Of a stretch of DNA of 64,000 nt, positions 1-3,886 are shown piece by piece; position 1 is the first letter of the stretch, and every line of letters begins with the position of its first letter. Below the pieces are notes generated by a model. That model ran no database searches. It worked only from the letters and a program-made list of their open reading frames with translations, and was not told where the DNA came from. Both the position numbers and the translations under genes were made by a program. Source of the stretch: Chryseotalea sanaruensis (GTDB lineage Bacteria > Bacteroidota > Bacteroidia > Cytophagales > Cyclobacteriaceae); NCBI RefSeq assembly GCF_003990915.1, contig NZ_BHXQ01000002.1, positions 1 to 64,000 of the forward strand, read 5' to 3'.

Positions 1-130
1 CGAATTGGTTTTGATTCACAAGTGGTTTTTAGTTGAATCAAAGTCACACGATGGTTTTAATGTCAACCAGAAGTTGTTAGCTATACTAAAGTCAACCGAA
101 GTAGGGTGGTGGTCGTTTAGTCGTCACGGT

Positions 131-157
131 CTTACGAAGCACTTCAACCGCCTTGTG
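131..157. repeat. 27-bp direct repeat, copy 1
   Basis: These 27 bases recur exactly at 2392-2418. On the minus strand both copies lie just beyond the GTT-containing end of a palindromic element (157-285 here, 2418-2503 there), so they look like the first bases of two related cassettes. The rest of the first 130 bases shows no gene I can support; an open frame on the plus strand there runs through the palindrome and antisense to the next gene, and looks spurious. Confidence 0.75.
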
Positions 158-285
158 CCTAACGCTGGGCTACATGGCGTGCCGCTTAGCGAAGCACGTA
201 TGATTCCAACGTTACAAAGCGAATTTAGTAGTTTGTGTGTAATTGGCAAACTGTCACGCGGCATGACATGTAGCTATTGTTGTGT
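157..285 (-). repeat. attC-like palindromic element A
   Basis: This is an imperfect inverted repeat of about 129 bp: GGCTACATGGCGTGCCGC on the left pairs with GCGGCATGACATGTAGCT on the right, and an inner AGTTTG/CAAACT pair lies in the loop. Read on the minus strand it begins with ACACAAC and ends with GTTAGGC. That end fits the integron core consensus GTTRRRY, and the beginning is close to RYYYAAC. It lies 11 bp downstream of the minus-strand gene at 296-1267, where an attC site would be. It differs from element C (1981-2109) at about 12 positions. No integrase is visible, so a non-integron REP or MITE remains possible. Confidence 0.65.
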
Positions 286-295
286 GGCGTGCGTA

Positions 296-1267
296 TCATT
301 TGCTCAATTGTCTAATTCGTTTCTGTTTAAAATTCTCCCACTTTCTCCTTTCTCTCGGATTATAATATTTAATGTAAATGTCGTTGTCGGTCGTGGGTTC
401 TATATTCAAAAATGTCCAGCTAATTTTTTTCTCTTTCTTGTCCATTTTGTAATTGGATGGTGCAATCGTCTCTACAGTATTTACCTTGACGTTATCCAGT
501 TTAACATTTACTTCAGCTCTACTGATTTTGTCTTTCCAACCTGTCCCAGTGCTTAATAGGTATTTCATAAACCTGTATTCTCCACCGTAGCCAATTCCAC
601 TTGGTACCATGTAATTAACTTTAATCGTTTTCGATTCGCCCTTATGAAACTTTACTTTCCAGATGTACCATGCATAATCGCCAGCTGTCATTAAACTGTC
701 AAATTCCATTATTAAATCAGAGTCGAGGTTTGGTTCATTTTCTTTCCAATTGTAAACTTTGGTTTGGGCTCGCTCAAAAGCGGAGTAAGATCCCTTAGTT
801 ACTTTTGTCCAATTTCTTTTTTCAATTACTCCAAAGTGTGTATTTATACTGTCTAGTTTTCGTTTATACTCTTCTTCAATATGAATTACTTTCATGTATT
901 TGTCATAAGTCTCTTTCATTTCCTCTGGAACTTGGATGTCACTTTGACTAAGTCTCAAGCCGTCAACGTATATTTCAAATTTTTCTTTGTCCTGCTTGTC
1001 GTAAGGGCTAATGCTCCAATGAAAGAAATTCATGACTGGAAAACCAACGGCTAAGGTTAAACTGTCACCGTGATTCTTCATATTAAATGTACAGCTTACA
1101 AAAGATGAGTCTGAATATAGATTTATATTAACGATCTCTGAAACCATTTGTACCTCACATGGTTTATTTGTCATTAAGCTTTTCAATACAATCGGATTGG
1201 GTGCGATGTCGGTCCGCCCGTTATTTGTCAAAAAGAGTAATAGAATAATTATTGTCGTCTTTTTCAT
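296..1267 (-). CDS. Exported protein of unknown function, possible cassette gene
   Basis: The protein has 323 residues with an N-terminal signal peptide (MKKTTIIILLLFLTNNGRTD). The upstream in-frame ATGs would prepend a polar decapeptide and run into palindrome B, so I chose the start at 1267. The body is rich in beta-type sequence with short acidic and lysine-rich segments, and a tryptophan-rich stretch (DYAWYIWKVKFHKGES) near residue 210. I do not recognise the family; it may resemble DUF4424-type exported proteins, but that is a guess. It is flanked by palindromes A and B with very short spacers (11 and 23 bp), the layout of a single-gene cassette. It has no operon partner. Confidence 0.7.
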   Translation of the reverse strand: MKKTTIIILLLFLTNNGRTDIAPNPIVLKSLMTNKPCEVQMVSEIVNINLYSDSSFVSCTFNMKNHGDSLTLAVGFPVMNFFHWSISPYDKQDKEKFEIYVDGLRLSQSDIQVPEEMKETYDKYMKVIHIEEEYKRKLDSINTHFGVIEKRNWTKVTKGSYSAFERAQTKVYNWKENEPNLDSDLIMEFDSLMTAGDYAWYIWKVKFHKGESKTIKVNYMVPSGIGYGGEYRFMKYLLSTGTGWKDKISRAEVNVKLDNVKVNTVETIAPSNYKMDKKEKKISWTFLNIEPTTDNDIYIKYYNPRERRKWENFKQKRIRQLSK

Positions 1268-1290
1268 TAATAGTCTGTCCCGAAGCATGC

Positions 1291-1377
1291 CACACAACGT
1301 CTGGCTATGAAGCGTTACTTTTATCCTTTAAAAAATAATTAATCAAAAGTAATGCTTTATAGCCGTTGTTGTGCGCT
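1291..1377 (-). repeat. attC-like palindromic element B
   Basis: Two 20-bp arms (1303-1322 and 1345-1364) pair at 18 of 20 positions around an AT-rich 22-bp loop. The outer ends are CACACAACG on the left and GTTGTTGTGCGC on the right. On the minus strand the element runs from GCACAAC to GTTGTGT. It fills the whole gap between the stop codon of the gene at 1379-1936 and the leader of the gene at 296-1267. The arms differ in sequence from elements A and C while the CACAAC/GTTGTG ends are kept, as in attC families, where structure is conserved more than sequence. Confidence 0.65.
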
Positions 1378-1378
1378 G

Positions 1379-1936
1379 TTAGCGTTTACTAAAGATCAAG
1401 CTACTGTATCCTTTTTCTGCTTTCCCAGCCACTAGAAATGACATCCAAATATTCCATTTATAATCAGCAACAATAGCATTGTCCGCTTTTCCAATTCTCA
1501 GTCTGTTTGTGTTGTAGCCAAATAGAACTGGGACTAAAGGAATTGTCACAAAGAATGGTCTTTTATAAAAGTAACCGTCTTTGAATTTACCTTTCACATT
1601 CTTCTCCGATATTATAGAGTCTCCTTGATACAATTTGAAAATGGCTTTCTTTGAGGTCAAAAATTCAATACTGACTGATTGGTTGTCCAAGTCGTAACCT
1701 AAGCCAAATTGATCTTGATTCACGTTTTCCCATAAAGTCTTTAATTGGTAGTCACCCGTAAACTGTGTCCAAAATTCTTTTCCCTTCCCATCGTCCGCCT
1801 TATTAGAGTATCGTCCGTTTAATTGACGAAAGTCACTTTCGTTTAATTTATCAACTGTCTGGATTGAATCATGCTTGATTGTTGCGCAACCAATTATTAA
1901 GGTTGCTAAAATCAAAAGTACAATTATTCTTTTCAT
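1379..1936 (-). CDS. Putative lipoprotein of unknown function
   Basis: The protein has 185 residues and starts MKRIIVLLILATLIIGCATIK, a type II signal peptide with lipobox IIGC, so it is predicted to be lipid-anchored in the outer or inner membrane. An upstream ATG three codons earlier is possible. The mature part contains a WTQF segment, then a hydrophobic patch around residues 128-142 (FFVTIPLVPVLFGYNT), and a short basic C-terminus. I do not recognise the family. It lies between palindromes C and B, again as a lone gene. Its stop codon directly abuts element B. Confidence 0.7.
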   Translation of the reverse strand: MKRIIVLLILATLIIGCATIKHDSIQTVDKLNESDFRQLNGRYSNKADDGKGKEFWTQFTGDYQLKTLWENVNQDQFGLGYDLDNQSVSIEFLTSKKAIFKLYQGDSIISEKNVKGKFKDGYFYKRPFFVTIPLVPVLFGYNTNRLRIGKADNAIVADYKWNIWMSFLVAGKAEKGYSSLIFSKR

Positions 1937-1980
1937 CAATCTCAACTATCTTATTTGGGGTTTTGTCCCGCGGTAATAGC

Positions 1981-2109
1981 GCACAACGCTGGGCTACATG
2001 GCGTGCCGCTTATCGAAGCTCGTATGATTCCAACGTTAATTAACGAAGTTAGTAGTTTGTGTGTAATTGGCAAACTGTCACGCGGCATGACATGTAGCTA
2101 TTGTTGCAC
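1981..2109 (-). repeat. attC-like palindromic element C
   Basis: This 129-bp near-copy of element A shares the same stem and the same loop with AGTTTG/CAAACT. The roughly 12 differences cluster in the outermost heptamers (GCACAAC and GTTGCAC here against GCCTAAC and GTTGTGT in A) and in the loop centre. On the minus strand it precedes the lipoprotein gene by 45 bp. Conserved inner sequence with exchanged ends is what cassette recombination at the core would leave. Confidence 0.7.
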
Positions 2110-2391
2110 ACTGGGCGGAGTCGTCCTACGTTAAGTGAGTCGAAATGTTGTCGTTATACGGTTACTGTCACAGGTTGAGTCGCGGTCGCTGGTCAAGACG
2201 AGTCCGTCCAGTGTCAAACAGGGTAGGAGAGTTACTTGAATTTGTTTTTGAGTCAAATTTTTTTCGTGAGCCCGATTTTTCAGATTTTCCTTTCCAGAAA
2301 TAAAAAAATTCGCACTTCACGCGATTCGTTTCTGTCACCGGGGCGGGGTAAAATAGTCCAAAGTCAAATGGTTTTTATCACACGTAATTAT
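2110..2391. other. Stretch without a confident gene between palindromes C and D
   Basis: This interval of about 280 bp holds no ATG-initiated reading frame of useful length. A 56-codon GTG-initiated frame on the minus strand (2338 to 2168) is open but has basic, low-complexity content, and I do not trust it. If the palindromes bound cassettes, this would be an apparently non-coding or decayed cassette. Confidence 0.5.
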
Positions 2392-2503
2392 CTTACGAAG
2401 CACTTCAACCGCCTTGTGTGCAACGTCCTGCTATATTCAACTGTTGAATATATTTCCGATATCCGGAGCCCACGCTGTTGCATATAGCCTCTAATATCGG
2501 AAG
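2392..2503 (-). repeat. 27-bp direct repeat copy 2 and divergent palindromic element D
   Basis: Positions 2392-2418 repeat 131-157 exactly. Next to it lies a divergent element with GTGCAAC at 2418-2424, the palindrome ATTCAACTGTTGAAT, arms CTGCTATAT/ATATAGC, and a second arm pair TTCCGATAT/ATATCGGAA (2453-2461 and 2494-2502). The two arm pairs interleave, so they would form alternative or pseudoknotted folds. It lies 48 bp past the stop of the gene at 2552-3886. Confidence 0.55.
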
Positions 2504-2551
2504 GTTTTGTGCAAGTCTCCAAATTTTTGAGTGCTCTTAGCTTTAATTCTG

Positions 2552-3886
2552 CTAATGCACCATCAAGCCCAAAGACACTCCCGGCCAATTGTCAAACTTT
2601 AATTCTCTTTCTTCTGTAACTTGTTCAGTACTTTCCTTGTGTAAATAGGCATTCCACGAAAGTGCAGCAAAGAAATAGACGCTGCTGTTTTTAGGTTTTA
2701 TCCTGCTGCCAATAAGCAACTCAGGCTTACTAATCAAATTCAGTTCTTTTGTTATTTTCTTCTTAGCTTCATTTAAATGTTGCATGGTAATACCATAGGC
2801 GTAAAACCATATTTCATTCATCCCCGGTCGTTGCGATCTGTTGTAGATGTACTTCCGCAAGGCATAACCTAGTGCCCACTGCGCATCTTTGTCCACCGAC
2901 CAGCTACTTCCTTTCGAGTAGATCAGCGCATTGTGTACATATTTGTTCTTATGCGTAGTCACAATCCTACCGTTCTTTATATTGCCTGTAGTCACTTCAA
3001 TATTAACAGGAAATAATTCTGTTGCATAAAGTGAGAGATGACCAAACGAACCGATGTTCAATAAACCAATAGCAGTACCATCAATGGTTCCTATTTCCTT
3101 TCCTCTTTTATAAATGTTAATCAAACCAATTTGTGTACCCTGCATGCGTCCTCCTATGTTTACCAAACCAATCTGGTAACCATTCATGCGTTCTTTGGCT
3201 TTGTTTACCAAGCCAATTTGCCAGCCGGTGTAGTCACTATTTTCGTAACCATTTTTTCCTTCTATAAAACCTACCCTGTTAAAAAGAGATAACTGCAAAC
3301 CATATAAACCACCATCAGTATAATTGCTGAGCGTGGCTATTTGCACACCGTCCATCGATTGATAAGAAGTGTTGGTAAGACCTGCCAACTGAAAACCGAA
3401 TGAGTATTTATACACCACATTGCTGATACCCGCCAACTGAAAACCAAATAAGGCATTGTGAATCATGTTGACCCCACCAGTGGCTTGCCAGCCATACGCA
3501 TTGGAGAGCACACTGTTGATAAGGCCTGAGAATTGCGCCCCTATCATATTGGCTTCGAAACCGCTTCTTTGCTTTTGATCTATCTCATTCTCGCTTAAGC
3601 CTTTGTATGCATTAATGCCTGTTACATTAACGAGTCCTGCCACTTGTAGTCCGCGGGTTTTTAATTCATTGGCATTTGAAATAAGGGCAAGCTCTAAAAA
3701 GTTAGTAGCGCCTGTATAGCCTGAAGTAAAATTGAAAGAGAATACATTGGTCTTATCACTGCCATGTATGCCGTTGGTACTAATGCCAGGACTTAAGGAC
3801 ACATGAAAAAGTTTGAGTTGCCTTTTTCGCGATTGCGGAAAAGCCAGTGTACTGCATGCGCACACTACGAGTAGGATTCGTAACAT
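2552..3886 (-). CDS. LA_2272-like surface repeat protein
   Basis: The protein has 444 residues with a signal peptide (MLRILLVVCACSTLAFPQS). Residues about 80-285 are a run of roughly eleven short repeats of the form G-aromatic-Q-hydrophobic-(A/G)-G-(L/I)-x-N, for example GLQVAGLVN, GFQLAGISN, GWQIGLVN, GYQIGLVN and GTQIGLIN. This pattern is known from outer-surface proteins annotated LA_2272 or LBF-type in Leptospira and many Bacteroidota. The C-terminal 130 residues look like beta strands ending in a hydrophobic residue, so an outer-membrane or cell-surface location is likely. No function is established. It is monocistronic. Confidence 0.7.
   Translation of the reverse strand: MLRILLVVCACSTLAFPQSRKRQLKLFHVSLSPGISTNGIHGSDKTNVFSFNFTSGYTGATNFLELALISNANELKTRGLQVAGLVNVTGINAYKGLSENEIDQKQRSGFEANMIGAQFSGLINSVLSNAYGWQATGGVNMIHNALFGFQLAGISNVVYKYSFGFQLAGLTNTSYQSMDGVQIATLSNYTDGGLYGLQLSLFNRVGFIEGKNGYENSDYTGWQIGLVNKAKERMNGYQIGLVNIGGRMQGTQIGLINIYKRGKEIGTIDGTAIGLLNIGSFGHLSLYATELFPVNIEVTTGNIKNGRIVTTHKNKYVHNALIYSKGSSWSVDKDAQWALGYALRKYIYNRSQRPGMNEIWFYAYGITMQHLNEAKKKITKELNLISKPELLIGSRIKPKNSSVYFFAALSWNAYLHKESTEQVTEERELKFDNWPGVSLGLMVH

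Follow-up and report, generated by a model that had tools for sequence, protein, structure and literature searches.

Integrons with the canonical integrase IntI, such as those of class 1 and of Vibrio, carry cassettes with attC hairpins, R' and R'' boxes and a GTT core. Known attC sites are 57-142 nt long, with an R complementarity of 9-11 nt, and the strand to be recombined is chosen via extrahelical bases (PMC2727003). The use of single-stranded attC by the integrase is credited to the I2 helix as the enabling innovation (PMC7790495), and in 2016 the joint origin of I2 and attC was presented as a "chicken-egg" paradox (PMC4792948). The locus reported here has the cassettes, hairpins, boxes and core in common with canonical integrons, but its candidate integrase is without the additional domain and points toward the cassettes, and its sites have few extrahelical bases.

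Other described systems are also close. In Treponema integrons, the integrase is likewise transcribed toward attI, in the cassette direction, but the integrase genes are termed intI in PMC3607928, whereas the domain is missing here, a comparison made by description only. Clusters of attC without an integrase (CALINs; PMC9024848) resemble the array in the window, which has no integrase up to the contig end, but the present genome does have one; a finder based on IntI would probably report the arrays described below as CALINs. The insertion-less members of a subgroup of integron-like tyrosine recombinases are not tied to attC arrays in the available text of PMC8138268, which is a difference from the present case. 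Reviews count the Bacteroidetes phylum as integron-bearing (PMC2426708, PMC8618304), and IntegronFinder 2.0 names one complete Bacteroidetes integron, that of Salinibacter ruber M1 (PMC9024848); compared by description only, it differs in that it is reported as complete, i.e., its IntI was recognised by that tool. In the literature searched, which covered few subscription papers and preprints, integrases without I2 were not found described together with attC arrays.

Sites and cassettes at the contig end

The window, i.e., the whole stretch of 64,000 nucleotides that was analysed, comprises bases 1-64000 of contig C2 of the Chryseotalea sanaruensis genome (4.7 Mb, 38 contigs), base 1 being the end of the contig. 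It very probably contains part of an integron-type cassette array of the chromosome, namely its left edge (Table 1).

Table 1. Features at the left end of the window (window positions)
Feature	Position	Strand	Description
cassette IV	1..162	minus	start of a noncoding cassette; truncated by the contig end
attC site A	154..286	minus	133 nt, type 1; R'' box ACACAAC; R' core GTTAGGCAC at 155-163
cassette III	163..1297	minus	boundaries read from cores
gene of cassette III	296..1264	minus	322-aa putative exported protein
attC site B	1289..1375	minus	87 nt, type 2; R'' box GCACAAC; R' core GTTGTGTGG at 1290-1298
cassette II	1298..1986	minus	boundaries read from cores
gene of cassette II	1379..1936	minus	185-aa putative lipoprotein; no Pfam match
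attC site C	1978..2110	minus	133 nt, type 1; R'' box GTGCAAC; R' core GTTGTGCGC at 1979-1987
cassette I	1987..2423	minus	gene-free; kin to a noncoding cassette present twice on C1; boundaries read from cores
element D	2415..2500	minus	degenerate attC-like site or old landing site, array edge; R' core GTTGCACAC at 2416-2424
flank gene	2552..3886	minus	conserved chromosomal gene, 444 aa, LA_2272-repeat surface protein; not a cassette

The first-pass annotation had proposed four palindromes as attC-like elements. All four are present, and on the minus strand A, B and C read as the attC layout R''-L''-loop-L'-R'; these three belong to the training set of the covariance models, so that their model matches are by construction; the strongest sign for them comes from the cores. 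D is a degenerate edge site rather than a good attC: it was missed by covariance searches at default settings and scored 9.2 bits with the filters off, in the correct register and on the minus strand, with a degenerate R'' box. The proposed likeness of B to A and C, in structure and not in inner sequence, was confirmed by comparison. By eye, the core ahead of cassette I (GTTGCACAC) complements the R'' box of C; the core of C (GTTGTGCGC) complements that of B, and the core of B (GTTGTGTGG) that of A, the latter two pairs being included in the counts of core matching below. Each R'' box thus matches the start of its own cassette, not the next core, which is a requirement of cassette excision and insertion and the pattern expected from the insertion of a circle at G/TT.

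The genes of cassettes II and III had been thought to encode exported proteins, and their N-termini agree with this, being those of a putative lipoprotein and an exported protein, respectively, with no Pfam match for either at E 0.01. For the cassette III gene, no match was found in the four other genomes of the genus, and a single weak one (G056, E 2.4e-4) in the remainder of the 59 genomes, own included.

In two relatives (G004 and G021), the very next gene after the homologue of the flank gene is a convergent one for a short-chain dehydrogenase, and the array is absent between them; in two further genomes (G001 and G003), the homologue has different neighbours, likewise without sites. Here, the flank gene adjoins the C2 array, and a dehydrogenase homologue (88% identity to that of G004) lies at C4:8140-8946, on a contig with array sites at 619-3097 whose direction is consistent with that of the C2 array. 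On the simplest reading of this arrangement, a single array would have entered between two genes that were ancestrally adjacent, its right edge lying on C4 and its middle being unassembled; the window contig ends inside the array, and edges are probable on C2 and C4. An end-to-end joining of the C1 and window arrays was rejected, since both reach contig ends in the cassette direction. A comparison of integrase-locus synteny with relatives gave no matches in 17 loci, all of which are short, so that it is uninformative.

Matching of cores and predicted folding of the sites

From the sequence comparisons, we consider it highly probable that the locus belongs to an integron-type array with cassettes that are mobile as units, and that the recombinase is most likely an IntI-related protein without the I2 domain that is encoded on contig C1. 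The unit of movement would be the cassette, i.e., a gene or noncoding segment together with its attC. One strand of attC, the bottom strand, would fold into a hairpin and serve as a single-stranded substrate, a tyrosine recombinase would cut between the G and the TT of the core, and the excised cassette would leave as a circle or insert at attI or another attC; the enzyme would be the C1 protein, whose gene is accompanied by an attI-like core and six sites of its own. The computed features are the array, the matching of cores, the conserved hairpin, the empty site in relatives, the recurrence of integrase with sites and the missing domain. The integron-like cassette array of the first-pass annotation is supported by the arrays, the core matching, the lack of a match to the cassette III gene in the four other genomes of the genus, and the empty site.

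Two covariance models were used, R1 built on 8 sites and R2 on 84, instead of a general palindrome scan (AAC...GTT with stem), which was unspecific in that shuffled sequence scored comparably. R1 found 31 sites in the own genome and R2 at least 45, a lower bound, since 150 of 3003 candidates were scored; the sites lie on C1, C2, C3, C4, C5, C6, C7, C8, C9, C12, C13, C17 and C18, several of which are short contigs. Two elements of an integron, tandem cassettes of gene plus attC and an R''-L''-L'-R' hairpin with a GTT/AAC core, were found. Among 25 intervals from one site to the next, each no longer than 3 kb, the longest ORF runs in the attC direction in 21; two are without an appreciable ORF, and in two it is opposite (an insertion sequence and a DNA methylase). 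The longest intervals between sites may conceal missed sites.

Core matching was evaluated in the own genome, in relatives, and at the best 80 of 587 named integrase loci. Neighbouring pairs match over at least 7 nt in 21/25, 42/63 and, for the best 80 of 587 named loci, 14/26 cases, respectively, versus 5.8%, 4.4% and 4.0% of random pairings; pairs with a core that could not be placed had been dropped (2/27, 5/68 and 1/27). The downstream core of the site itself matches to this extent in only 0/22, 3/61 and, for the best 80 of 587, 3/48 cases. The non-matching neighbours (4/25, 21/63 and, again for the best 80 of 587, 12/26) count against the preferred explanation, and missed sites or decay are suggested as their cause. 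An upstream partner core of at least 9 nt within 3.5 kb was found for 27/38 own sites, 62/89 sites of relatives and 43/49 sites at the best 80 of 587 named loci, sites without a placeable R'' being dropped (4/42 own, 1/90 relatives); with swapped boxes the same test gave means of 7.2, 4.6 and 5.2%, and when run downstream it succeeded for only 2, 3 and 5 sites, the third value referring in both cases to the best 80 of 587. The counts for core matching and partner cores used 42 of 44 own matches and 90 of 106 matches from relatives, the omitted ones being weaker (E >5e-4).

It should be noted that some sites stand singly in the genome, several of them scattered on C3, C5, C7 and C8, as would be expected of dispersed palindromic repeats (REP or MITE-like) that lie between genes by chance. 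This interpretation is contradicted already by the core matching in the own genome (21/25 versus 5.8% at random); in addition, the cores match cassette starts, one gene orientation dominates (21 of 25 cassettes), and arrays adjoin an integrase, so that it is very improbable. For the first-pass annotation, the integron-like array would have been refuted by palindromes scattered genome-wide beside unrelated conserved genes in fixed synteny, without an array and without presence/absence variation of the enclosed genes; what was found instead are arrays, matched cores, a cassette III gene without a match in the four other genomes of the genus, and an empty site in relatives.

The stem is conserved as a structure. 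In an alignment of 84 sites, which is fitted to the covariance model, 91.8% of cells are paired, versus 64.7% after shuffling and 21-44% after sliding; the main stem shows double changes in 9/9 pairs, and the signal breaks down when the partner is slid. On the top strand, A.C stands at two positions in 82/84 and 78/84 sites, and thus T.G on the bottom strand, which pairs at these positions in 84/84 and 81/84 sites. Inserts in the left arm, the would-be extrahelical bases, occur in 6/84 sites, so that this hallmark of attC is largely missing; this count is biased, since the model was seeded on sites without extrahelical bases, and the A.C counts lean on the same model. The bottom strand is the more stable fold in 30/42 own sites and 66/90 sites of relatives. 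The long R box (9-10 nt), which had been considered a novel trait, was dropped as such, because 9-11 nt are given for known attC in PMC2727003.

The candidate integrase and its association with sites

The first-pass annotation had seen no integrase. This holds for the window array up to the contig end, but contig C1 carries one that is not a canonical IntI. The best match of the genome to TIGR02249 is a 406-aa tyrosine recombinase on C1 with 216.5 bits, which is below the curated cut-off of 265 and places it outside the subfamily; a canonical IntI is absent from the genome at this cut-off. The best sequence match in the PDB is IntI4 (2a3v), in two aligned pieces that skip part of the catalytic domain. 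The C1 integrase is an IntI relative without the IntI additional domain of about 42 residues (I2 helix). The spacing from GKGxKDR to HxLRH is 58-59 residues in 16 of 35 I2-less proteins (those in which both motifs were matched) and 100 residues in 25/30 canonical IntI. In a tree with midpoint rooting only, the 35 I2-less proteins, with modest support (83/70), and the 30 IntI (100/99) are on separate branches, both apart from two Xer proteins.

The C1 integrase also scores to XerA and XerC/D models, and it is thus conceivable, though very improbable, that the units are not cassettes but integrative elements or modules of the Xer/dif type belonging to this recombinase family. Against such elements, there is a single hairpin site per unit, mostly with one gene, and the cores vary from unit to unit while the stem is constant. 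The AlphaFold2 model of a relative from Algoriphagus ornithinivorans (pLDDT 83) is closest to IntI4 by Foldseek, and a second structural aligner placed XerA (Z 23.0, rmsd 15.0) and IntI4 (Z 21.7, rmsd 3.4) at the top; whole-integrase fold searches return recombinases throughout.

On C1, the integrase is followed 112 bp past its stop by an attI-like core and then by six sites, all on the same strand. The own arrays are split over contigs, the window array and the C1 integrase being on separate ones, which counts against assigning this enzyme to the window array. Sites (E <=0.01) were found at 13 of 30 integrase loci from relatives. Together with the own locus there are 14 site-bearing loci, for the analysis of which six of the omitted weaker matches were restored; at 13 of them sites lie downstream, invariably on the integrase strand, and L149 speaks against the preferred explanation, its sole site lying upstream and on the strand opposite to the integrase. 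Where sites lie downstream, the integrase is followed by a partner core that extends over at least 7 nt at 13/13 loci and over at least 9 nt at 12/13; six of the latter cores lie within 250 bp of the integrase stop and would be of the attI type, and a partner core kilobases from the integrase may instead be part of a site that was missed. This test for attI cores and downstream sites is limited by the many contigs that stop soon after the integrase.

At the best 80 of 587 named integrase loci, sites were found in 22, every one from Bacteroidota, and 49/49 sites are on the integrase strand and 48/49 downstream, the exception being L231:2590. The closest integrases among these 80 stem from two MAGs, one of Cyclobacteriaceae (57% identity) and one of Flammeovirgaceae (54%). 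The 58 of the best 80 loci without a detected site count against the preferred explanation; 17 of the 55 Bacteroidota loci in this set end within 1 kb. Where at least 3 kb downstream are available, sites are present at 17/27 Bacteroidota loci versus 0/16 others (best 80 of 587), and the 10/27 without a site again count against it.

None of the 18 site-bearing genomes has an IntI above the curated cut-off, which argues against the view that ordinary attC are worked in trans by a canonical IntI, lost or located elsewhere, with the C1 integrase as a bystander. This view, which we regard as improbable, is favoured by the fact that arrays without integrase are common (PMC9024848), by three of the 18 genomes (G002, G007 and G028), which have sites and matched neither integrase type at E 1e-25, and by one of 14 canonical IntI loci in the phylum (L306), which has four sites of the present type upstream of IntI on the same strand and no I2-less integrase in 16 kb; the three genomes and L306 also count against the preferred explanation. 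However, the bias of strand and position at I2-less integrases (best 80 of 587 named loci) is near total, and several of these integrases have attI-like cores just downstream. In a phylum sample, IntI above the cut-off occurs in 105/395 genomes; a single one of these, G095, belongs to the same class, and other classes of the phylum commonly have a canonical IntI.

Long runs of sites were also seen: G028:C8:346000-370334 (L150-L151) is a long same-strand array that is possibly integrase-less, or a contig is missing, and the listed same-strand sites of G545:C1:4767092-4837274 (single contig) and G242:C1:3226184-3292633 (5 contigs) extend over about 66-70 kb and are possibly very large arrays.

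Many I2-less integrases have about 70 extra N-terminal residues. HARP (Pfam PF07443) matches the N-terminus in 4/23 members at E <=1 (best 9.4e-4) and DUF5710 in 5/23 (best 0.016). The HARP structure 4o66 is the top PDB profile match of the N-terminal piece, a weak one (E 0.04), and its top Foldseek match (E 0.075), with an unrelated fold next at 0.080. The second aligner returned T4 UvsW (Z 7.0) and XPB (Z 6.1), a level that the tool rates as ambiguous, and 4o66 is absent from its top 50. HARP is the substrate recognition domain of SMARCAL1. The integrase of G045 (284 aa), a genome with an array, seems to be without the N-terminal part, and any role of this domain is a guess.

Taken with the preferred explanation, what emerges seems to be an integron lineage that is widespread and would escape definitions based on IntI. 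Surveys may therefore undercount integrons in Bacteroidota: at least 108/291 genomes of the order have such a site (at most eleven candidates per genome were scored), versus the single complete integron named by IntegronFinder 2.0 (PMC9024848). More tentatively, and with somewhat less than even confidence, we propose that a Bacteroidota lineage recombines hairpins without I2 and mostly without extrahelical bases, that the T.G wobbles would set the strand, and that a HARP/XPB-like domain would recognise the folded DNA. If this were true, hairpin cassette recombination would be older than I2 or would have come about independently of it. With natural arrays that occur alongside I2-less relatives, the question of the origin of I2 and attC becomes directly testable.

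Passenger cassettes and inserted elements

The noncoding cassette is present in two copies on C1 that are identical in 320/320 nt (L017 10640-10961 and 13396-13717), and window positions 1-163 are a third, partial copy (162/163 nt identical). The gene-free cassette family (window 1987-2423 and 1-162; L017) measures about 440 nt with attC and about 310 nt without, and its ends are conserved; Rfam gave no match in the three loci scanned (L017, L107 and L108).

An element with a 343-aa transposase, which we take to be of the IS110/IS1111 type, is found on C18 (L108, about 1286-2561), at the ends of C1 and C13, at the start of C6 and at C7:8885. Its insertion point is precisely the attC crossover (G/ATATCT), both at four sites and at a degenerate attC on C7. 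Insertion sequences of the IS1111 family that target attC are already known (PMC11187229). The element probably helps to explain the fragmented assembly.

Cassette genes resemble those of a type II methyltransferase (L109:1057-1833), a DUF6933/PDC-S63 candidate defence protein (L107:1030-1557), an HNH nuclease with a weak ZorE match (L017:12009-12752) and a Schlafen AlbA_2 protein (L112:771-1706), and thus some cassettes may serve phage defence. A 673-aa ATPase of the E1-E2 type is encoded in a cassette interval on contig C9 (L110:1088-3109).
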